Assembly (NCBI GenBank): GCA_032027145.1
Contig: JAVSMP010000001.1
Coordinates: forward strand, 3,477,116 to 3,541,115
DNA length: 64,000 nt
Origin: Ignavibacterium sp.
GTDB taxonomy: Bacteria; Bacteroidota; Ignavibacteria; Ignavibacteriales; Ignavibacteriaceae
Reading direction: 5' to 3'
How positions within the stretch are numbered: the stretch's first letter is position 1; each line of letters begins with the position of its first letter. Of the stretch, positions 4,183 to 13,830 are shown piece after piece. Under the pieces are notes generated by a model. It did no database searches. It was not told where the DNA came from and saw nothing but the letters and a program-made list of their open reading frames with translations. The translations under genes and the position numbers were made by a program.

Positions 4183-6312
4183 TTGTATAAAAAAGTTTTG
4201 TTTGTGAAAAACGACAATGATACAAAACCAAATCCCATTGAGCTTGAAGAGTTAAGAACTAAGCTGTTTGAAAATATTTTAAGTGCCACCTCGCACTTTA
4301 GAAAAGTAGAATTATACACAGCGTATTTTAATTCTATACTTAATCTTCAATCTGAAAGAATTTGCGAAGCCTTTCTAAAAGAATTTATTGAAGAATTTTT
4401 ATCTTCTGTAAAAAAGTTTGAAGTCTGCGGTACAGATCCGGCATATACAGAACATTTGGTTTTAATATTAACTTCTCTTGAAAATTTTAATTGTTTTTCA
4501 CCGGAACTTTCAACTATTGTATTTGAAAAGAATAGAATAAATACCCAATTAAGTTTACTTAATAACGTTCTTAAAGGTGAAGAAAATCCAACACCAAATG
4601 AACATAAAGCTTACTTTCCATTAATTGATAAGGAATCATCAACTGAATTTTACGGAATACTTGATTCTGTAACCATTAGAATTAATAAAAGTACAGATGC
4701 CGATAAGTTAATAATTGTACCAAGCGAAACTGATCTTGAAAAAAGAATTGAAACTCAGGTTAATACTTCCTGGAAACTTGCTCTTGATTTATCTAAAAAA
4801 TATTTAAAGAAATTATATAAGCATCACGAAGTCATAATCAGTTTTGATAAAAGATTGGGTTTTTATGAAGGCAACTCGCTTGGTATTGCATTAACAGTTT
4901 CTTTTCTTGAACAACTATTAAAATTTTATAATCCTGTTTATGTTATCAATATAAAAGAACAAACAGCTTTTACAGGCGGAGTTGATAACAAAGGTAAAAT
5001 CCTTACAACCGGTGAAGAAATAATTAAACAAAAAGTTAAGGTTTTATTCTATTCAGAAATTAAAAACTTTGTAATTCCTAAATGCGAAGAAACTTATGCT
5101 TATTTTGCTTTAACACAACTTCAAAAAGATTATCCCAAAAGAAAATTAAAAATAATTTCTGTTGAAGCTTTTACAGATGTAATAAACAGGCGTGATCTTG
5201 TTGATATAAATAAACAGAAAGTAATAGTAAGAACAGGAAAGTTTGTTAAGAAGAATTGGGCTGCAGTTTCTGCAATACTTATTCTTTCAGCAATTATTTC
5301 TTTTTTTGTAATAAGAGACATTGATACTAATCCATCATTTTTTTCATCTGATGGAAGAAAAATTTATATAAAAAATAAAAGCGGTAAAATACTTTGGGAT
5401 AAAAATATTGGTGTCCCGGAACATTTACTTAGGCAAGAAAATCATTTAAAATCATTAACAATGATTGTAGATATAAATTCCGATGGAGTTAACGAAGTAA
5501 TAACTGCCAGAGAAATATCTAAAGACATAAGTGATCCTTACATTAAATGTTATGATTATGCCGGTAATTTAATTTGGAAATATTCTTTTAAGGATGAGGT
5601 CGTCTCTGAGCTGGAAGAATTGAATACAGAATATAGTAGTTTATTGTGCGATACATTTACAGTTAATGGTGAAAAAAGCTTATTCCTGATATCAAACAAT
5701 TTAAATTCTTTTTCTTCTGCTATTTCACGAATCAGTCTCTTAGATGGCAGGAGACAGCCGGGAACGTTCTGGGCTTCGGGACATATAATGGGTGCATTTA
5801 TTAAAGATATTGATTCTGATAGTAAACCGGAAATTGTGGGATTCGGTTACGACAATGGATTTGAAGATATTGTCTTTTTTGTTTATGAAATTGATAGTCT
5901 GACGAAAGTAAGACCGACAACAGAGAAATATCTCATCAGAAATTATCCCGTTGCTGATATGAAATCCTACATCAGGTTTCCGAAAACAGACTATGAAATA
6001 TATCATCAAGTTAGAACACCAAGTCCGTGGAATGGCGGCTTTTCAGATGAAGAAGAAAGTCACAAGTACGCTTTCACATTTGCAAACGTTAAAAATAATT
6101 CCGAGCCAACAATTGGTTTCCGAATTGATTACAATTTTAAAGACATTGATATTGTAATCATAAGTAGTTATAGGGTGCAAAGAGATACACTTGTTGCTCA
6201 CGGAGTATTAAAACCGCCTTACACAGATACAAAAGAGTACTGCAATCTGATAAAAAGCAAACTACTGTTTTATAAAAATGAGAAATGGGTGAAGAGGGAA
6301 GAGTTGGAATAA
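4183..6312 (+). CDS. Lon (S16)-like protease domain / TM / FG-GAP-like sensor protein
   Basis: Unrecognised architecture. Residues 1-150 are a mostly helical region I cannot place. Residues about 185-345 resemble the Lon proteolytic domain: YEGNSLGIAL carries Ser232 where Lon has its nucleophile, FTGGVDNKGKILTTG matches the Lon MTGEI..G.VLPIGG strand pair, and Lys282 lies 17 residues before the P of FVIP, the same spacing as the Lon catalytic Lys to its VLIP. There is no AAA+ domain. A hydrophobic helix follows (about 359-378). The C-terminal part has two DxNxDG-like calcium loops, DINSDGVNEVI (430-440) and DIDSDSKPEIV (542-552), as in FG-GAP/VCBS propellers. So the protease side is probably cytoplasmic and the propeller-like part periplasmic. 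No ATG is available: the frame opens at TTG 4183, with GTG 4204 as an alternative, so the N-terminus may be truncated at the junction with the decayed module. Its 3' end recurs at 8840-9082. Confidence 0.6.
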   Translation: MYKKVLFVKNDNDTKPNPIELEELRTKLFENILSATSHFRKVELYTAYFNSILNLQSERICEAFLKEFIEEFLSSVKKFEVCGTDPAYTEHLVLILTSLENFNCFSPELSTIVFEKNRINTQLSLLNNVLKGEENPTPNEHKAYFPLIDKESSTEFYGILDSVTIRINKSTDADKLIIVPSETDLEKRIETQVNTSWKLALDLSKKYLKKLYKHHEVIISFDKRLGFYEGNSLGIALTVSFLEQLLKFYNPVYVINIKEQTAFTGGVDNKGKILTTGEEIIKQKVKVLFYSEIKNFVIPKCEETYAYFALTQLQKDYPKRKLKIISVEAFTDVINRRDLVDINKQKVIVRTGKFVKKNWAAVSAILILSAIISFFVIRDIDTNPSFFSSDGRKIYIKNKSGKILWDKNIGVPEHLLRQENHLKSLTMIVDINSDGVNEVITAREISKDISDPYIKCYDYAGNLIWKYSFKDEVVSELEELNTEYSSLLCDTFTVNGEKSLFLISNNLNSFSSAISRISLLDGRRQPGTFWASGHIMGAFIKDIDSDSKPEIVGFGYDNGFEDIVFFVYEIDSLTKVRPTTEKYLIRNYPVADMKSYIRFPKTDYEIYHQVRTPSPWNGGFSDEEESHKYAFTFANVKNNSEPTIGFRIDYNFKDIDIVIISSYRVQRDTLVAHGVLKPPYTDTKEYCNLIKSKLLFYKNEKWVKREELE

Positions 6313-6378: not shown

Positions 6379-7815
6379 TTATTTTAAAAGCAGCATCTTC
6401 TTTGTTTCTATAAAACCTCCAGCTTTTAATTGGTAGAAGTAAATTCCGCTTGAAAGATAGCTTGCATCAAAGTCGATCGTATAATTGCCGGTCGATTGAT
6501 CTTGATTAACTAAGGTAACAACCTCTCTTCCTAGAAAATCAAATACACTTATCTGTACTTTTGTGAGTTGTGGGACTGCATATTTTATTTTGGTTATTGG
6601 GTTAAATGGGTTAGGATAATTCTGAGATAATGAATAATTCTTGATAGTTAAATCACCGATTTCATTTGCGATTGTAGTAATTTGTATTCCATCAATAGAT
6701 TTAAGGTAAAAACCTTGACTTTGTCTACTATCTTTTGATGCTATAATCCATTTTGCATTCTGAATGACAGTAGTAGGCGTAAATGTACCAGAAAAGTTGT
6801 TTCCTTGCACAGTTAAAGTTCCATCATTATTAAACGTTAGTGTAAAATTTATCATTTCTCCACTTACATAAGTTCCTATAGTATCTTTAAATGTCATATT
6901 TTGATTACCATTATCTTCAAAGTAATTAACAATGCCATTTCTAAAAACTATACCGTAGTTGTTGCCTTCGTAATTAGCCCAGCCATCTCCTATCCCAAAA
7001 AATGCAGCATCATAGTTAACACCACCCGAACTATTTATAATTTGTGCCTCAATATCAATTGATGTTCCTAGTGAAATTTGATAAATAGATCGGATTTCTC
7101 CCCAAGAATAATCATCAATGCTAAATGTAGCTAGATCTTCAAAACTAGGAAACCAAGAGCCCATATTCACATTTCCACTCCACCAATTACCTTCCCAATC
7201 TGCTGTAGTTATAATTTGTATTCCATCAATAGATTTAAGGTAAAAACCTTGACTTTGTCTACTATCTTTTGATGCTATAATCCATTTTGCATTCTGAATG
7301 ACAGTAGTAGGCGTAAATGTACCAGAAAAGTTGTTTCCTTGCACAGTTAAAGTTCCATCATTATTAAACGTTAGTGTAAAATTTATCATTTCTCCACTTA
7401 CATAAGTTCCTATAGTATCTTTAAATGTCATATTTTGATTACCATTATCTTCAAAGTAATTAACAATGCCATTTCTAAAAACTATACCGTAGTTGTTGCC
7501 TTCGTAATTAGCCCAGCCATCTCCTATCCCAAAAAATGCAGCATCATAGTTAACACCACCCGAACTATTTATAATTTGTGCCTCAATATCAATTGATGTT
7601 CCTAGTGAAATTTGATAAATAGATCGGATTTCTCCCCAAGAATAATCATCAATGCTAAATGTAGCTAGATCTTCAAAACTAGGAAACCAAGAGCCCATAT
7701 TCACATTTCCACTCCACCAATTACCTTCCCAATCTGCTACAAGTTTATTATTGAAACTTGGTTGTGAATAAATAATTGAGATAAAAATAAACAAAAGTAA
7801 GAATAATTTTTTCAT
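6379..7815 (-). CDS. Secreted T9SS-cargo protein with two identical 178-aa repeats
   Basis: Exported protein of unknown function. A signal peptide (MKKLFLLLFIFISIIYS) is followed by two consecutive 178-residue units, residues 27-204 and 205-382, each starting ADWEGNWWSGNVNMGSWFPS and ending SIDGIQI. Apart from the last residues the two look identical. The unit is beta-strand rich with many aromatic and Asn residues and resembles a jelly-roll (concanavalin-like) fold, but I cannot assign a family. Residues about 395-478 are a T9SS type-A sorting domain: NYPNPFNPITKI, VFDFLGREV, SGIYFYQL and terminal ETKKMLLLK. It is therefore likely to be carried across the outer membrane and anchored at or released from the surface. 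AAGGTGAT just upstream of ATG 7815 is a good ribosome site. It faces the protease-like gene tail to tail. Confidence 0.85.
   Translation of the reverse strand: MKKLFLLLFIFISIIYSQPSFNNKLVADWEGNWWSGNVNMGSWFPSFEDLATFSIDDYSWGEIRSIYQISLGTSIDIEAQIINSSGGVNYDAAFFGIGDGWANYEGNNYGIVFRNGIVNYFEDNGNQNMTFKDTIGTYVSGEMINFTLTFNNDGTLTVQGNNFSGTFTPTTVIQNAKWIIASKDSRQSQGFYLKSIDGIQIITTADWEGNWWSGNVNMGSWFPSFEDLATFSIDDYSWGEIRSIYQISLGTSIDIEAQIINSSGGVNYDAAFFGIGDGWANYEGNNYGIVFRNGIVNYFEDNGNQNMTFKDTIGTYVSGEMINFTLTFNNDGTLTVQGNNFSGTFTPTTVIQNAKWIIASKDSRQSQGFYLKSIDGIQITTIANEIGDLTIKNYSLSQNYPNPFNPITKIKYAVPQLTKVQISVFDFLGREVVTLVNQDQSTGNYTIDFDASYLSSGIYFYQLKAGGFIETKKMLLLK
6679..7738 (-). repeat. Near-perfect 534-bp tandem direct repeat inside the T9SS gene
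   Basis: Bases 6679-7204 and 7213-7738 match at a fixed offset of 534 bases with no difference found by eye; divergence is confined to a few bases at the junction, where one copy reads ATTGTAGTAA and the other CTGTAGTTATAA. The unit keeps frame (178 codons). Absence of even synonymous differences points to a very recent duplication or ongoing gene conversion. An assembly artefact cannot be excluded from sequence alone. Confidence 0.9.
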
Positions 7816-8272: not shown

Positions 8273-8497
8273 CTAACCAAAAAATTCTTCTACCGATACC
8301 TCAATTTCTCTTATGATGGCTCTCACGGTTCCTTTCCTGATATTTTTACCTCTATAATGTGGTACAGGAACAGCTTTACCATCTGAGTTTCTCACCCACA
8401 ATTCGTGTGAACCTTTCCCCGAACGGTAATAAACAAATCCAAATTTCTTCAGGCGAGTGGTTAATTCTTTGTAGTTTAATTCGCGGAGTTTAGCCAA
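8273..8497 (-). CDS. hicA: HicA family mRNA interferase toxin
   Basis: Small dsRBD-fold toxin that cleaves mRNA when not bound by HicB. The 74-residue protein shows the HicA pattern: LNYKELTTRLKKFGFVYYR, then GSHELW with the catalytic His31, and VPVPHYRGKNIRKGTVRAII, the conserved central and C-terminal strands and helix. It lies 2 bases downstream of hicB on the same strand, so it is co-transcribed in the antitoxin-first order. All key residues are kept, so it should be an active toxin. Confidence 0.88.
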   Translation of the reverse strand: MAKLRELNYKELTTRLKKFGFVYYRSGKGSHELWVRNSDGKAVPVPHYRGKNIRKGTVRAIIREIEVSVEEFFG

Positions 8498-8499
8498 TT

Positions 8500-8748
8500 T
8501 CAGATTCCAACGGGCATACTAAATGCGAGACGAGAATTTTTTGTCAGTGAAATTTCATTGAAACCAAGATTTTCATTTCTGCTTTTACGGTATTCAAAAA
8601 TCATTTTTGCAACATCTATACAGTTAAAAATGGCTTCTTCAATTGTATCGCCTTCGGCAAATGCACCCTGAATACCGGGAACCTTTGCTAAGTATCCGTC
8701 TTCGCTTTTTTCAACTTCTACCGATACGAGAATCGTATTATCTTTCAT
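8500..8748 (-). CDS. hicB: HicB family antitoxin
   Basis: Antitoxin partner of the adjacent HicA. The 82-residue protein has the partial RNase-H-like HicB fold: VSVEVEKSEDGYLAKVPGIQGAFAEG and then DTIEEAIFNCIDVAKMI. It is a short-type HicB: after the core there are only about 25 residues (SLTKNSRLAFSMPVGI) and no obvious helix-turn-helix or ribbon-helix-helix, so autoregulation by this protein alone is uncertain. It precedes hicA by 2 bases. Confidence 0.85.
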   Translation of the reverse strand: MKDNTILVSVEVEKSEDGYLAKVPGIQGAFAEGDTIEEAIFNCIDVAKMIFEYRKSRNENLGFNEISLTKNSRLAFSMPVGI

Positions 8749-8839: not shown

Positions 8840-9082
8840 TCTTTTGCATTTGCAAAGAAAAATAATCATTCTGATGCAACAATTAGTTTCCGGATTGATT
8901 ACAATTTTAAAGACGTTGATATTGTAATCATAAGTAGTTATAGGGTGCAAAGAGATACACTTGTTGCTCACGGAGTATTAAAACCGCCTTACACAGATAC
9001 TGAAGAATATAAAGAGATTGTTAAAAATAATATTCTTTATTGGCAAAATGGGAATTGGGTTAAGAGAGAAGAGTTGGAATGA
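8840..9082 (+). pseudogene. Truncated copy of the 3' end of the protease-like gene
   Basis: The frame from about 8840 reads SFAFAKKNNHSDATISF and then FRIDYNFKD-V-DIVIISSYRVQRD, LVAHGVLKPPYTDT and ends NWVKREELE at TGA 9080-9082. This matches the last 80 or so residues of the protein encoded at 4183-6312, with an almost exact nucleotide block (8895-9000 against 6128-6233) and a more diverged final 25 codons. There is no start codon and nothing upstream matching the rest of the gene. It is a remnant left by a deletion, or one end of a segmental duplication. Confidence 0.85.
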
Positions 9083-9143: not shown

Positions 9144-12008
9144 TTATTTTAAAAGAAGCATCTTCTTGGTATCAATAAATTCTCCAGCTTTTATTTGATA
9201 GAAATAAATTCCAGAAGCGAGGTTCTTTCCATCGAACTCAATTTCATATTTTCCTGCATTTCTATACTCATTAACAAGTGTTGCAATTTCATTTCCCAAA
9301 ACATCATAAACTTTAAGTGTTTGCTGACCAGAGACAGGAGACTGCCAGCTTATTTTCGTACTTGGGTTAAAAGGATTTGGGAAATTTTGTGAAAGACTAT
9401 ATTCTTTCGGTATAGAGATAATATTATTATTTCTTTGATCATCTTCGATTCCAGTAATAACATTAGGAGCATAAGTTGTATCAGGAGTTCCATCACCATC
9501 AATATCAACTTCAAGTGTGGGTGTTTGAACATTAGTGTTTAGTGTGCAAGTTGCGACTGTATTTGGTTCAATTGCTATACTGTCATATTCAAAAGTAATC
9601 GTTCCTCTGGAAGTATCCGAATAATCTTCAATAACATAACTGAAATAACTTGTTGTGTCTTGTGATTCAATTACAAATGTATATTCGTTCGTTCCATCTA
9701 ATGGTTCAAGATAAACAGTTTTTATTTTTTCTCCAGTACTATCTTCATAAACATAATATTGACTGCCGGGAATTTCTTCTACATAAGTTGAATCATTAAT
9801 AGGTCCTGTGTGGTTTCCCAAATTATCATAAATATGAAAATCTACAGGACAAGCAACACTACTTATAATCTCTCTCATAGCATAGAATCCAATATCATCT
9901 AATAATACTTGAGTGGATAATGGGACTGAATTTTCAAGTTCAAATTTAATTGTATTTGTACGTCCCTTCAAAGCAGAAGGTATGGCGAACTTTTTCCAAA
10001 CAAAATTAAGATCAGGACTGTTTAATTGAAAACTGGTAATGAACTGATCCGATATATATACTTTAACTATGACATCACTTGTTGGAAAAATAGTACGTGT
10101 CCTGAACCAGATATATTCTACATCATCTGGAAAATAGAGAAAGTTATGTATCAGTACAGGTGAAGATTTAGTAAGGATAGCTGAAATGTTTCCCCCTATC
10201 AAAGTTACCTGAGGAGTCTCACCTCCTTGATAGCTCCATCCTGGTTCTTTTGAATAAAAAGATTTTGAAAAATTTCCATTAAATATCGAAGAAGTATTTG
10301 AAAGCTTAGTATCTTCAGTTACATCTTTCAAATTCTCTGTAAGAGAATATATATCACTCAAATTTCCAAGCCGATTTCTTGAACGAAAAAAACCCTCAGT
10401 TGTACCTAAGTTAGAATTATACCATTCAGTTCTTGGAATATTTGGTCCCTCGCCAAATTCATCTTCATTGGCTATTGTATTTATGGTTCCAAAATACCAA
10501 GTATGCACAAGGCCATGAGCATCATCAATTGGTAATTTTGTTGTTAGGTCAGTCTTACTTGGCGAAGTTGTATTGAGCCCTGGGAAATAATCTAAACCCT
10601 TAAACGGGTTCTGCCATAGATGAAAATGTGTTTCAAAATAATTATCGATGTATTTAGTCAGGTAGCTACCACTTTTCCATCCAGCAACTCCTATATTGAA
10701 TGAATTTACACGGTCATCATCCATAGGGACTAAAAAACCACGCCAATGACCTGCAGGATGTGGGTCTAAGGTTGTCATATGAATTTCGGGATCAAGATTT
10801 ACTTCGCTTGGTAAGATTCCATTAGCTGCCCAATATATAAGTCTTTGAATAGCTTCACTATTAACCACACAGCCTCTGCTATGACCAATAAAATGTAAAT
10901 GCTTTAAAAGAAATGAATAATCATTTGCTAAATTTACGAGTGTGGCAGCAAGAACATCTCCTGCAGCTTCTGCGAAACCGTGTACATTTATTGCCGACTC
11001 TAACGTCCAATCAAAAATAAAAACATTATCTTTATCTGGATTAATAGCTCTCGAGACCACATAATTGTCTATAAGGTAATCTATTGTACTATTACTATAT
11101 ATGGCAGCAAATTGTGAGAAAGTTGCTTCAATGGGATAAACATTTCCTTTTCTGATTAAATAAATATCTCTGTTATCTGAAACAGCATCAGCCATTGCAA
11201 ACTGCCATCGGAGGTGTTTCCATTTAGTTTCAACTATTGGATTTATAGGAATCAGCCCCTCTCCCGTAAAACCGTTTGTAATTATGATCGTATTTAATTC
11301 TCTACCGCTCCATCCACCTTCGTGATACAACTCGAGAATTTCCGTTTCACTTAATGCACGGTTGTAAATCCTAGTATCATCTATTGAGCCAGTAAAGGAA
11401 TTCAAATATGAAATTAATGGTTTTCCAATTCTAATTGGTGTACTAGTATTCTGAATTGAGGTTATGTTTGAGGTCGTTGTTGTATCGAAAACACCATTAA
11501 TATAAAAAGTTACTTTACTATCCGCTTTATTCCAGATAAATACAATGTGATTCCAAGTGTTTAAGTTTAAAGTAGTATTAGTTATAATTGTTTTTTGTTG
11601 ATACTCTGGTCCATTAAAGGATCCGCTTAAACTCCCATTCGCGTTTATTTGCAAACTATATTCATCATCCAGGTAGCCACCCTCACCAATCTTTAATAAT
11701 ATTATTCCTGTAGTATTCTGTTCTTGTCTAATCCATGTTGCCAAAGTTACGCCTGTTGCATTTGAAAAATCGAAAGAATTATTATCAGGTACGTTTAAAT
11801 AACTCATTGATGTGAATTTAGCGGCGGTATCTAATTGACCAGCAACATAAGTTACACCGTATATGGCTGTCGGATTATTCCCATTACCACTATAATCATT
11901 GGCATTACCATTAAACGGATAATATGCAACTAAACCTTGAGTGGATTGAGCAATTATGATATTTGTAAAAAATATTGCAAAAATTAAAACAGTAAATAGT
12001 TTAACCAT
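9144..12008 (-). CDS. Secreted LamG + lipase-like alpha/beta hydrolase, T9SS cargo
   Basis: Large exported protein. I start it at ATG 12008 (GAGG six bases upstream) rather than TTG 12020, giving 954 residues. Domains in order: signal peptide (MVKLFTVLIFAIFF...AQ); LamG/concanavalin-like lectin domain at about 24-230 (GLVAYYPFNGNANDYSGNGN, GVTLATWIRQE, NTWNHIVFIW, GSIDDTRIYNRALSETEI); an alpha/beta-hydrolase segment at about 240-510 with FIGHSRG (nucleophile Ser377), TLDPHPAG (candidate acid Asp415) and DAHGLVHTWYF (candidate His498 or 502), the lipase-type order; a beta-rich middle region; and a T9SS type-A sorting domain at the end (NFPNPFNPSTKI ... DTKKMLLLK). DIDGDGTPDTTY at about 840 is a calcium-loop-like segment. 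Its substrate might be a polysaccharide-linked ester or lipid; that is inference. It is convergent with the truncated protease-like copy. Confidence 0.8.
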   Translation of the reverse strand: MVKLFTVLIFAIFFTNIIIAQSTQGLVAYYPFNGNANDYSGNGNNPTAIYGVTYVAGQLDTAAKFTSMSYLNVPDNNSFDFSNATGVTLATWIRQEQNTTGIILLKIGEGGYLDDEYSLQINANGSLSGSFNGPEYQQKTIITNTTLNLNTWNHIVFIWNKADSKVTFYINGVFDTTTTSNITSIQNTSTPIRIGKPLISYLNSFTGSIDDTRIYNRALSETEILELYHEGGWSGRELNTIIITNGFTGEGLIPINPIVETKWKHLRWQFAMADAVSDNRDIYLIRKGNVYPIEATFSQFAAIYSNSTIDYLIDNYVVSRAINPDKDNVFIFDWTLESAINVHGFAEAAGDVLAATLVNLANDYSFLLKHLHFIGHSRGCVVNSEAIQRLIYWAANGILPSEVNLDPEIHMTTLDPHPAGHWRGFLVPMDDDRVNSFNIGVAGWKSGSYLTKYIDNYFETHFHLWQNPFKGLDYFPGLNTTSPSKTDLTTKLPIDDAHGLVHTWYFGTINTIANEDEFGEGPNIPRTEWYNSNLGTTEGFFRSRNRLGNLSDIYSLTENLKDVTEDTKLSNTSSIFNGNFSKSFYSKEPGWSYQGGETPQVTLIGGNISAILTKSSPVLIHNFLYFPDDVEYIWFRTRTIFPTSDVIVKVYISDQFITSFQLNSPDLNFVWKKFAIPSALKGRTNTIKFELENSVPLSTQVLLDDIGFYAMREIISSVACPVDFHIYDNLGNHTGPINDSTYVEEIPGSQYYVYEDSTGEKIKTVYLEPLDGTNEYTFVIESQDTTSYFSYVIEDYSDTSRGTITFEYDSIAIEPNTVATCTLNTNVQTPTLEVDIDGDGTPDTTYAPNVITGIEDDQRNNNIISIPKEYSLSQNFPNPFNPSTKISWQSPVSGQQTLKVYDVLGNEIATLVNEYRNAGKYEIEFDGKNLASGIYFYQIKAGEFIDTKKMLLLK

Positions 12009-12127
12009 TGTGTACCTCAAAAAAGGAATTTATGAGTAAATAATACGTTTAAGCTATGTCTTTCTATACCTTAAACATTTTTGTTTTCGGAAAACCCAAA
12101 CAATCTTTTTTTCAAAAATCTTTTTTA

Positions 12128-12141: not shown

Positions 12142-13146
12142 ATGAAAAGTGATAATTCGATATTTAATACTCTTAACAGCATTTGTTTTGGAAAAGCTAC
12201 TCGATCTGAAATAAATTATATCATTGAGTTATCACACAATTACGCCTGCACTTATCTTAAATACAGATATAAAAATTTAAACAAAGTTTTATTAGCTGAA
12301 GATGTAACGATTAAAGAACTTGCGATTGATGCAATTGCTCCTATGTTTGAAAGAGATGAAAATGAATTATTTATAAAACTTATTAAGGCTTTTAATAATT
12401 GGAATCCAAAAATTGAAAGTGAAGAACAAGCATTATTTTTTCTTAACAGGATTGTTGCAAAAAGTACTGAGAAATATGTTTCAAATTTACTCCGTGATTC
12501 CGATCCTTTCTTTTCTAAAATCCTGGATTCGATAAATTACTTAATTGAGAAAAACGGTTACGCCAAAAAACAAATACTTGGAACAACTTATATAGTTGAA
12601 AATAAATCGAGTAATGGAAAATGGAGTAATGGAGATTGCAATGTTGGAGTAAAAAACTTACCTGATCATAATTTTATTGACGAATTACCAATTATTGTAT
12701 TTAACAGTAAACAGAATGTTGTTTCAAAAATATTTGAATTTATAAAAACAGAAACAGACAAAATACCTGCTATTCCATTAAATGCTCTTGTCATTAAGTT
12801 AAAACAGGTGAATGCATCATCGTACATTTATAAAGACAGTATTACGGAAAATGTAACTGAGATAAATTCAATTGTAGAGAAAGCTGTAAAGAATACTTTT
12901 AGTAAACTTCAGGAAAGCTATATTGAGAAAAACAAAATAGAAAAAAGTGATGGTGAACTAATTAAAAAAGCAATAGATAAAATTGTTGTTGATATGCAGG
13001 ATGGAGGAATAAATGTCGGGCTGCATAAATATTTGATGGAACAAATGACAAATCTTAGTTTTGATGAATATAAAAATAAGTACCAGAACACTTTTGAGTA
13101 TTTGTATAAAATCTTAAAAAAAGAAATAGCTGAAGAATTAGAATGA
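12142..13146 (+). CDS. Unknown protein, faint sigma-factor-like pattern
   Basis: I do not recognise this gene. From ATG 12142 (TTG 12133 is possible) it encodes 334 residues, soluble, with no signal peptide or membrane helix. The N-terminal 110 residues (NYACTYLKYRYKN, AEDVTIKELAIDAIAPMFE, FLNRIVAKSTEKYVSNLL) have the rhythm of sigma-70 region 2, an acidic-aromatic helix pair, and the last 35 residues (NLSFDEYKNKYQNTFEYLYK, KKEIAEEL) have the ending typical of region 4, but no clear helix-turn-helix is visible. The middle 200 residues are unplaced. It is followed 141 bases later by another unrecognised gene on the same strand. The sigma idea is a weak inference; structure prediction would be needed to support it. 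Confidence 0.55.
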   Translation: MKSDNSIFNTLNSICFGKATRSEINYIIELSHNYACTYLKYRYKNLNKVLLAEDVTIKELAIDAIAPMFERDENELFIKLIKAFNNWNPKIESEEQALFFLNRIVAKSTEKYVSNLLRDSDPFFSKILDSINYLIEKNGYAKKQILGTTYIVENKSSNGKWSNGDCNVGVKNLPDHNFIDELPIIVFNSKQNVVSKIFEFIKTETDKIPAIPLNALVIKLKQVNASSYIYKDSITENVTEINSIVEKAVKNTFSKLQESYIEKNKIEKSDGELIKKAIDKIVVDMQDGGINVGLHKYLMEQMTNLSFDEYKNKYQNTFEYLYKILKKEIAEELE

Positions 13147-13287: not shown

Positions 13288-13830
13288 ATGAACAAGAAAA
13301 AAGAAAATATTTTAATAACTGAACAGGATCTGTTTAATTATGTGTTTTTTAATAACCAGATTTCTGATGAAATAAAGCAAATTATTGAGAATGATAATTC
13401 ATTTGCAGAAGCTTTAGAATTTTATAGCATGCTTAAGATAGAATCGGTAAATAAACCTGATGAATCACTTAAAAAGAAAATAGCAGAAAAGATTCCAGCT
13501 TATAGCTTACCAAACATAATCTATCTATATCAATTAAAAGCTCCTGAGATAAAACAAAATGGAAACAAGTTTGCTGCCGATTCAAAGGAACTAAAGCCAA
13601 AGATGACAACAAAAACTTTTGTTGATAACGATAAAGAATATTTAATAAAAGTTTTGAACTATGGCGATTTAACAAAAGTATTTGTGTTTTCTACAAAGGA
13701 TGATGTTGTAAAGAATTTTGATATTGTAATTGAACCAAACAATATTATCTACCATTTTGATGATAATTCAGAGCCGCTAAAAATTGATAAAGTAATTGAG
13801 GCTGAAAAAATCGAAATAAGATTTATTTAA
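13288..13830 (+). CDS. Unknown protein, anti-sigma-like N-terminus
   Basis: Unrecognised 180-residue soluble protein. The first 60 residues (ITEQDLFNYVFFNNQISDEI, then DNSFAEALEFYSML) resemble the helical N-terminus of anti-sigma factors (a short acidic helix followed by a 'dpe..a.le' helix) but lack the zinc HxxxCxxC. The C-terminal half looks beta-rich (KVFVFSTKDDVVKNFDIVI). There is no membrane helix. Its position after the weakly sigma-like gene makes a regulator/partner pair plausible, nothing more. Confidence 0.55.
   Translation: MNKKKENILITEQDLFNYVFFNNQISDEIKQIIENDNSFAEALEFYSMLKIESVNKPDESLKKKIAEKIPAYSLPNIIYLYQLKAPEIKQNGNKFAADSKELKPKMTTKTFVDNDKEYLIKVLNYGDLTKVFVFSTKDDVVKNFDIVIEPNNIIYHFDDNSEPLKIDKVIEAEKIEIRFI

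Follow-up and report, generated by a model that had tools for sequence, protein, structure and literature searches.

Of the systems described so far, the closest to the one treated here is found in type III CRISPR: according to the papers on CalpL/CalpT/CalpS, a Lon-SAVED protease cuts an anti-sigma factor and thus frees an extracytoplasmic function (ECF) sigma factor (PMC11417357, PMC12751052). The gene considered in this work, denoted c0, lies in a stretch of 64,000 nucleotides from Ignavibacterium sp. (contig JAVSMP010000001.1; this whole stretch is referred to as the window), and its product joins an S16 (Lon-type) domain to a membrane helix and an outer domain. Together with two further genes, c2 and c3, it forms a system that is best read, by analogy, as a membrane counterpart of CalpL/CalpT/CalpS. 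Specifically, c0 may be a transmembrane receptor protease that cuts the anti-sigma-like c3 upon a signal, thereby freeing c2, an account to which we give serious, albeit somewhat less than even, credence.

In this account, c0 would be an inner-membrane receptor whose C-terminal β-propeller-like domain senses a signal outside the cytoplasm, while its N-terminal half would act in the cytoplasm as an ATPase-free Lon-type serine protease with the predicted dyad Ser232-Lys284. The inhibitor c3 would hold c2, a divergent sigma-factor-like transcription output. The signal would pass through the membrane helix, probably via a change of oligomeric state, and the activated protease would cut c3 at an Ala motif located between its c2-binding helical part and its β part, leaving c2 free to act. 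A first-pass annotation of the sequence had already proposed a membrane sensor whose cytoplasmic Lon-like Ser-Lys domain could cleave a partner; fold, profile, dyad, topology and neighborhood all agree with that proposal, proteolysis itself being predicted.

The likeness to CalpL/CalpT/CalpS lies in a sensor-controlled Lon domain, in the cutting of an anti-sigma factor to free a sigma factor (proposed in our case) and in the number of genes, three. However, CalpL senses cyclic tetra-adenylate by SAVED and serves phage defense, whereas the sensor of c0 is an outer β-propeller-like domain joined via a membrane helix. Neither Pfam nor NCBIfam gave a SAVED match for c0, PADLOC gave none of any kind, and the 60 PDB sequences matched by a c0 profile at E ≤ 1 include nothing named CalpL or SAVED. 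Having no SAVED, a different sensor and a membrane-bound protease, the c0 module is not a member of the CalpL/CalpT/CalpS group.

The Lon proteases (LonA, LonB and LonC; MEROPS S16) share with c0 the S16 fold and a Ser-Lys dyad in register, two of the features by which S16 is recognized, but c0 has a sensor and a membrane helix instead of an AAA+ ATPase and, with no AAA+ module in its chain, is not an ATP-dependent Lon. YlbL from Bacillus subtilis, which we take to be the protein NP_389388.1, is membrane-anchored, in likeness to c0, but it contains PDZ where c0 has an FG-GAP-like domain, and we know of no sigma-like partner for it. The available part of a 2008 survey of S16 architectures presents NP_389388.1 as a PDZ-Lon protein whose S16 domain, as in c0, comes without AAA+, and names no architecture with FG-GAP (PMC2605481). 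An anti-sigma factor is also cleaved in response to a signal in the regulated intramembrane proteolysis of RsiV and RsiP (PMC9044953, PMC8844934). There, however, the anti-sigma factor resides in the membrane and is processed by distinct site-1 and site-2 proteases, whereas c0 unites sensor and protease in a single chain and c3, its presumed inhibitor partner, is soluble. Csx30, the substrate of the CRISPR protease Csx29, acts on a sigma factor. Csx29 itself, a TPR-CHAT protease (PMC10028731), resembles c0 as a triggered protease, but it belongs to another protease family and is triggered by RNA. Among the papers listed by the searches of an open-access library, no title or beginning of an abstract was found to describe the c0 architecture or the module.

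The S16 domain and its predicted Ser-Lys dyad

Taken alone, the c0 protein of the window matched Pfam Lon_C with an E-value of 0.039 and NCBIfam spore_lonB with one of 0.0032, both under the curated cut-offs, so that the Lon homology read by eye in the first-pass annotation went beyond what single-sequence tools could deliver. A profile built from 52 c0 homologs matched the Archaeoglobus fulgidus Lon proteolytic domain in the PDB with an E-value of 1.4e-11, along with further Lon chains, and a profile of 23 homologs matched Lon-sized frames in 12 genomes that had no better match (E 1.3e-6 to 5.9e-4). The AlphaFold model of c0 was confident (mean predicted local distance difference test score, pLDDT, 91.1; predicted template modeling score, pTM, 0.68). 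When compared by VIA-align, its residues 130-335 (model numbering, to which 7 must be added for that of the 709-residue frame) matched human Lon with a Z of 22.1 (root-mean-square deviation, rmsd, 2.3; 178 aligned residues), E. coli Lon with a Z of 20.4 and A. fulgidus Lon with a Z of 17.8, the Lon domains among the rows shown spanning Z 17.5-22.1. Foldseek also yielded S16/Lon, with a best E-value of 1.4e-8. Predicted structure and profile are therefore in agreement with the Lon S16-type domain that had been claimed: c0 carries a genuine Lon-type S16 domain.

Conservation of the dyad was evaluated on 72 aligned stretches from the phylum, 12 of which end short of Ser232 and 13 short of Lys284. 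Both residues are kept in all the stretches that cover them, even where homologs drop to 16-20% identity with the c0 of the window, and they are among the just five residues that are invariant in 52 c0 sequences. When c0 is aligned with A. fulgidus Lon, Lys284 coincides with the Lys found there 43 residues after the Ser; we take Ser509/Lys552 in A. fulgidus and Ser679/Lys722 in E. coli to be the catalytic pairs of Lon. On the basis of this conservation and of the 43-residue spacing, which is that of the known Lon pairs, Ser232-Lys284 is the predicted catalytic pair of c0. The first-pass annotation had named Ser232 and Lys282 and had staked its reading on the conservation of both. Ser232 stood (60/60), but Lys282 (codon 5026-5028) is kept in 14 of 59 covering stretches and was ruled out as the catalytic residue; the test failed because the wrong Lys had been named, the aligned catalytic position being that of Lys284 (59/59).

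One result cautions against equating fold with function. ComM, a helicase and not a protease, matches the S16 part of the model with a Z of 17.6, and therefore the S16 fold alone is no proof of catalysis. A catalytically dead S16 scaffold that merely binds c3 would be in line with this match and with an activity that, for c0, is a prediction only, but the invariance of both dyad residues down to 16-20% identity makes such a scaffold very improbable.

No AAA+ family was found among the Pfam matches of the c0 of the window or of the family members, and the N-terminus, of about 120 residues, is helical in the model (model residues 11-123). On these grounds, a Lon protease with a hidden AAA+ module was ruled out, and the absence of an AAA+ ATPase noted in the first-pass annotation was confirmed.

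The membrane helix and the outer domain

By a simple hydropathy threshold, all 52 c0 homologs have a hydrophobic helix at the corresponding position of the alignment. No further hydrophobic segment was detected in the c0 of the window, which thus has the single membrane helix initially assigned to it, or in 36 of the 52 homologs, the other 16 having one to three. Basic residues precede the membrane helix and, because of them, the N-terminal protease half should be located inside, in the cytoplasm.

The outer part had been described as an FG-GAP-like region with two calcium-type loops. Two Asp-rich loops of the FG-GAP type were indeed found, at residues ~430-438 and 542-550. As for the FG-GAP likeness, 13 of 23 family members matched FG-GAP_3 in Pfam at E ≤ 0.1 (best 5.3e-5), and the window protein itself stays under the curated cut-off (E 0.17). 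A relative devoid of the Lon domain (L055) has an FG-GAP match over the curated cut-off, and the hits of the c0 profile in the PDB include propeller proteins for the outer part. In a relative from genome G222 (L198, 13656-16076), a Lon-like domain with the Ser and the Lys and a hydrophobic helix are followed by a different propeller, DUF5122, and for this reason the outer part was considered exchangeable. The stretch holding this Lon-like/DUF5122 protein also shows three c2 matches.

Linkage to c2 and c3, and the nature of these partners

The new finding of this analysis is that c0 belongs to a three-gene module with c2 and c3. When homologs in Ignavibacteria and the genes adjoining them were looked up, as the first-pass annotation had advised, two genes were found to recur around c0, namely c2 (~330 residues) and c3 (~180-275 residues), which become candidate partners. 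In most cases the gene order is c0-c2-c3 if the relative is near and c2-c3-c0 if it is distant, and c2 lies within three genes of 34 of the 57 full Lon-type c0 proteins, or within the fetched stretch for 40 of them. Among 395 genomes of the phylum, 61 gave some c0 match; 14 of these, with weak matches only (E 1.3e-6 to 9.0e-4; in 12 of them to Lon-sized frames of 806-855 residues, over the S16 part), were not counted, leaving 47 genomes in which the c0-family match lies at E < 1e-20 (Lon type in 36, a Lon-less type only in 11). c2 was found in 53 of the 395: in all 47 c0-family genomes, including the 36 with the Lon type, and in 6 of the 348 others (Fisher p 9e-55 for the 47 and 2e-38 for the 36 alone, both inflated because genomes share ancestry and are not independent). 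These presence counts are lower bounds, the c0 search having scored two candidates per genome and the c2 search five. A full re-scoring of 20 genomes for c0 gave no match in G018, G155, G289 and G099 and a Lon-sized frame only in G362, and it uncovered in G222 a Lon-type match at 6.3e-24 that the first search had missed, so that c2 stands without any c0 in five genomes, one of them (G099) with a weak c2 match. In 15 genomes fully searched for c2, the gene was present in 8 of 9 with c0 and in 1 of 6 without it (G018). Two observations weigh against the linkage: the exception among those nine, G009 (82% complete and outside the 395-genome sample), has a Lon-type c0 and no c2 match, and in the window c0 stands 5.8 kb from c2, with two genes for secreted proteins and the remnant of another c0 between it and c2 and c3.

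The AlphaFold model of c2 (pLDDT 89.0, pTM 0.74) matches sigma factors in three of the top four VIA-align rows, each over region 2. The alignments with Clostridioides difficile sigmaA (7l7b; Z 8.0, rmsd 2.7, 89 aligned residues), E. coli sigma70 (6p1k; Z 6.8) and sigma28 (1sc5; Z 6.2) cover the model from residue 3-13 to 120. By eye, the c2 pattern D-L-A-x-D-x-I-A-x-L-F, in which D63 and F69 are nearly invariant, shares its register with D-L-V-Q-E-V-F-x-x-L-W, which we take to be the sigma region 2.2 pattern. In addition, a fused protein of G371 (L202, 9004-10506), encoded next to a PAS histidine kinase, carries c2 C-terminal to a response-regulator receiver domain (PF00072, E 2.9e-24). This arrangement argues that c2 is an output module; the receiver would then represent another input for the same output. 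The fold match leads to the suggestion that c2 is a sigma factor.

Several results count against this suggestion. A Z of 6-8 lies within the range of common helical bundles, and Foldseek returned nothing for the c2 model at E ≤ 0.001. Naming c2 by sequence was likewise unsuccessful: the c2 profile found no PDB chain at E ≤ 10; the only sigma families obtained from Pfam and NCBIfam were two NCBIfam models, each with a single c2 member matching (E 0.023 and 0.051); and the comparison with a profile of 38 sigma sequences was not significant (probability 5%), its score of 20.9 exceeding the best of 60 column shuffles (15.6) but with an alignment out of register with the fold. These null results and the modest Z would suit a regulator of transcription or RNA other than a sigma factor, built on a comparable helical bundle, in a module that would still be a receptor-protease cascade, a proposal that overlaps with the preferred account except for the nature of c2. 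Nevertheless, the presence of sigma chains, always aligned over region 2, in three of the four best rows and the zinc-finger anti-sigma-like layout of the partner in the Lon-less relatives, described below, render it rather unlikely.

In these Lon-less relatives, the gene after c2 encodes a single protein in which a head and a membrane helix are joined to that same outer domain. The first 75 residues contain an H-x(2-4)-C-x2-C finger in 16 of 20 Lon-less outer-domain proteins, versus 3 of 837 other open reading frames; the remaining four are three pieces at contig edges and one double-domain protein. L124 (1552-4140) encodes a protein of 863 residues with two tandem outer domains and an anti-sigma-like head. 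The layout of the Lon-less head is that of zinc anti-sigma domains, and zf-HC2 was matched by L097 with an E-value of 0.0058, under the cut-off and the best among nine proteins scanned with Pfam. Judging from its sequence, c3 appears to be a like head in the form of a separate soluble protein, mostly without cysteines, to which a β-rich part is added: a zinc finger is seen in 6 of the 37 proteins listed as c3 or as adjacent to it, and none of the 34 c3 proteins that remain after removing three unrelated neighbors has a hydrophobic segment. It must be said that the c3 of the window lacks zinc-binding Cys, the H-x3-C-x2-C finger being absent, and that the attempt to name c3 by its profile against the PDB failed, with nothing better than E 0.59.

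The candidate cleavage site in c3 is an Ala motif placed between the helical and the β parts. Its Ala97 is the most conserved residue of c3 (33/34). In a larger set, 41 of the 42 c3 regarded as Lon-paired retain Ala97, compared with 2 of the 4 that are not (p 0.017); if Ala is required at both 96 and 97, 8 of the 42 and 3 of the 4 fall short (p 0.037). Both tests are post hoc and based on few cases. The 42 include L052 (G046), which lies beside a c0 cut at a contig edge with its Lon part unseen, and a c3-like fragment of 76 residues beside the receiver-linked pair (L202) was not counted. As for the unpaired cases, the c3 of G018 ends before Ala97, the partner of the receiver-fused c2 (G371) is without it, and the c3 of G155 keeps it but reads IQA. 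Two cases speak against the motif as a Lon site: G045, where no Lon-type c0 was detected, keeps LAAAS in c3, and the c3 of L094, next to a Lon-type c0, is devoid of Ala97. In none of the 16 zinc-finger fused proteins was the Ala motif present outside what was taken by eye for membrane helix, which alone proves little, because the whole β part is also missing there. Lon prefers to cleave after Leu, Ala and Phe (PMC11986505).

Whatever its conservation, the dyad is silent on what is cut. The S16 domain might be active but cut c0 itself, with a cytoplasmic self-release, or a substrate other than c3, so that c2 and c3 would be held by binding only. ATPase-free S16 proteins that process themselves are known, such as viral VP4, and the zinc-finger fused form operates with no Lon domain at all. 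However, the presence of c2 in all 36 Lon-type genomes of the phylum sample and the conserved Ala motif at the junction of the two parts of c3 make this unlikely. Even less probable is that the protease degrades the output, c2, rather than c3, with the signal acting by c2 loss: although Lon can degrade a sigma factor directly, as reported for sigma-T (PMC10662116), a folded c2 would hardly be a substrate in the absence of an AAA+ unfoldase, and CalpL, the closest analog, cuts the anti-sigma factor (PMC11417357).

As regards the preferred account, in which c0 cuts c3, a further piece of information came from comparing the window with genome G002. The membrane-plus-outer half of c0 is 85% identical between both and the inner half 39%, the step being located just before the membrane helix, while c2 and c3 show 38 and 41% identity; the synonymous divergence (dS) of c0 is 0.42 in the outer half and 2.29 in the inner one. 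The inner half, c2 and c3 of G002 are nearest to those of G006 (67, 62 and 70%), and its outer half is nearest to that of the window. This pattern implies one natural recombinant in which the sensor has moved but protease, c2 and c3 have remained a matched set. Two results run counter to such a matching. A mirror-tree test, from which the c2 of G010, G014 and G027, broken or cut there, was left out, showed that the inner half tracks its partners no better than the outer half, with partial rank correlations (inner vs. outer) of 0.21 vs. 0.27 for c3 (136 pairs) and of 0.12 vs. 0.34 for c2 (91 pairs); the expectation of a better tracking by the inner half was thus discarded, the test being not discriminating or, if anything, pointing to the reverse. 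Furthermore, the c2 and c3 of G003 are 58 and 66% like those of the window, with an inner half at just 32%. The fullest version of the account, namely a new class of receptors in which an outer sensor and an ATPase-free Lon cut a soluble anti-sigma factor at an Ala motif and free an undescribed sigma family, with an exchangeable outer cassette and a matched protease, inhibitor and sigma factor, is put forward only tentatively.

Reading frame, copies, neighboring genes and implications

The 709-residue frame reported in the first-pass annotation is real, but its homologs begin near residue 8-17, and for that reason the GTG is a likelier start than the TTG (Table 1). The ratio of non-synonymous to synonymous rates (dN/dS) against the G002 homolog is 0.24 for the inner half, where dS (2.3) is near saturation, and 0.22 for the outer half, which speaks for more than a chance frame. 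Of 59 related genomes, that of the window included, 25 contain a c0 match, and 16 of these 25 matches span most of the length. Among the matches listed are seven named loci, all from metagenome-assembled genomes, six of them labeled Ignavibacteria, Ignavibacteriaceae or Ignavibacterium and one "Bacteroidetes bacterium". c0 was also considered as a defense gene, a possibility that was rejected: c0 and c3 remained without a PADLOC match, and the two matches obtained for c2 were weak (E 0.0059 and 0.0072).

Table 1. Features of the window discussed in the text, in order of position.
Feature	Coordinates	Strand	Basis or remark
c0, predicted receptor-protease gene	4183..6312	+	709 aa from TTG; GTG at 4204 likelier
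c0 N-terminal helical region, ~residues 18-130	4234..4572	+	AlphaFold model; no Pfam AAA match
S16 (Lon proteolytic) domain, ~residues 137-344	4591..5214	+	Profile, AlphaFold model, Foldseek, VIA-align
Ser232, predicted nucleophile	4876..4878	+	60/60 covering stretches; aligned with Lon Ser
Lys284, predicted general base	5032..5034	+	59/59 covering stretches
c0 transmembrane helix, ~residues 358-380	5254..5322	+	Model helix; hydrophobic segment in 52/52 homologs
c0 extracytoplasmic β-rich domain, FG-GAP/β-propeller-like	5323..6309	+	Pfam, PDB profile, model
Secreted protein with type IX sorting tail, between c0 and c2	6379..7815	-	Pfam; module membership not shown
Second c0 copy, remnant (last 80 codons)	8841..9080	+	DNA identity 90% and 76%, two blocks
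Laminin-G-like secreted protein with type IX sorting tail, between c0 remnant and c2	9144..12020	-	Pfam; module membership not shown
c2, sigma-factor-like partner, 337 aa	12133..13146	+	ATG at 12142 likelier; only copy found in genome
c3, anti-sigma-like partner and candidate substrate, 180 aa	13288..13830	+	Only copy found in genome
c3 conserved Ala motif FAADS, candidate cleavage site	13570..13584	+	Commonest form LAAx[S/T]

The remnant of a second c0, 240 bp long and located 2770 bp downstream of the tail of the intact gene, is the relic of a duplicate that may once have stood directly before c2. On L096, 19 kb accommodate four full-length Lon-type copies of c0 and two of c3, and L100 has three consecutive c0 genes; as read from these two stretches, receptors multiply around one c2. 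Beside the remnant, a HicA/HicB-like toxin-antitoxin pair was observed at 8276-8748 (HicB_lk_antitox, E 7.5e-5, under the Pfam cut-off; HicA was named by eye). Secreted-protein genes of a cluster denoted c1 lie convergent to c0 or to its remnant, within ~75 bp of the stop, in five cases (those starting at 6379 and 9144 in the window, for which Pfam shows type IX tails, and those in L032, L034 and L036), which may reflect a shared terminator, a cassette site or sensor-related cargo. Two direct repeats of 300 bp, 98% identical, occupy 6664-6963 and 7198-7497 inside the first of these genes and represent a recent internal domain duplication.

Among bacterial receptors, there are those that signal inward by phosphorylation, by a cyclic nucleotide or by a bound anti-sigma factor. 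If the proposed account is true, a receptor carrying its own cytoplasmic protease effector would be an additional type of output, simpler than the cascades of intramembrane proteolysis, and the CalpL logic of sensor, Lon, anti-sigma and sigma would be in use outside CRISPR. c2 and c3 would be candidates for a new sigma-like family with its natural inhibitor, and c0 for a portable ATP-free protease switch, the steps being testable with three small soluble or truncated proteins. All this suggests that, in some bacteria, an external signal may be converted into gene expression through cleavage of an intracellular protein.

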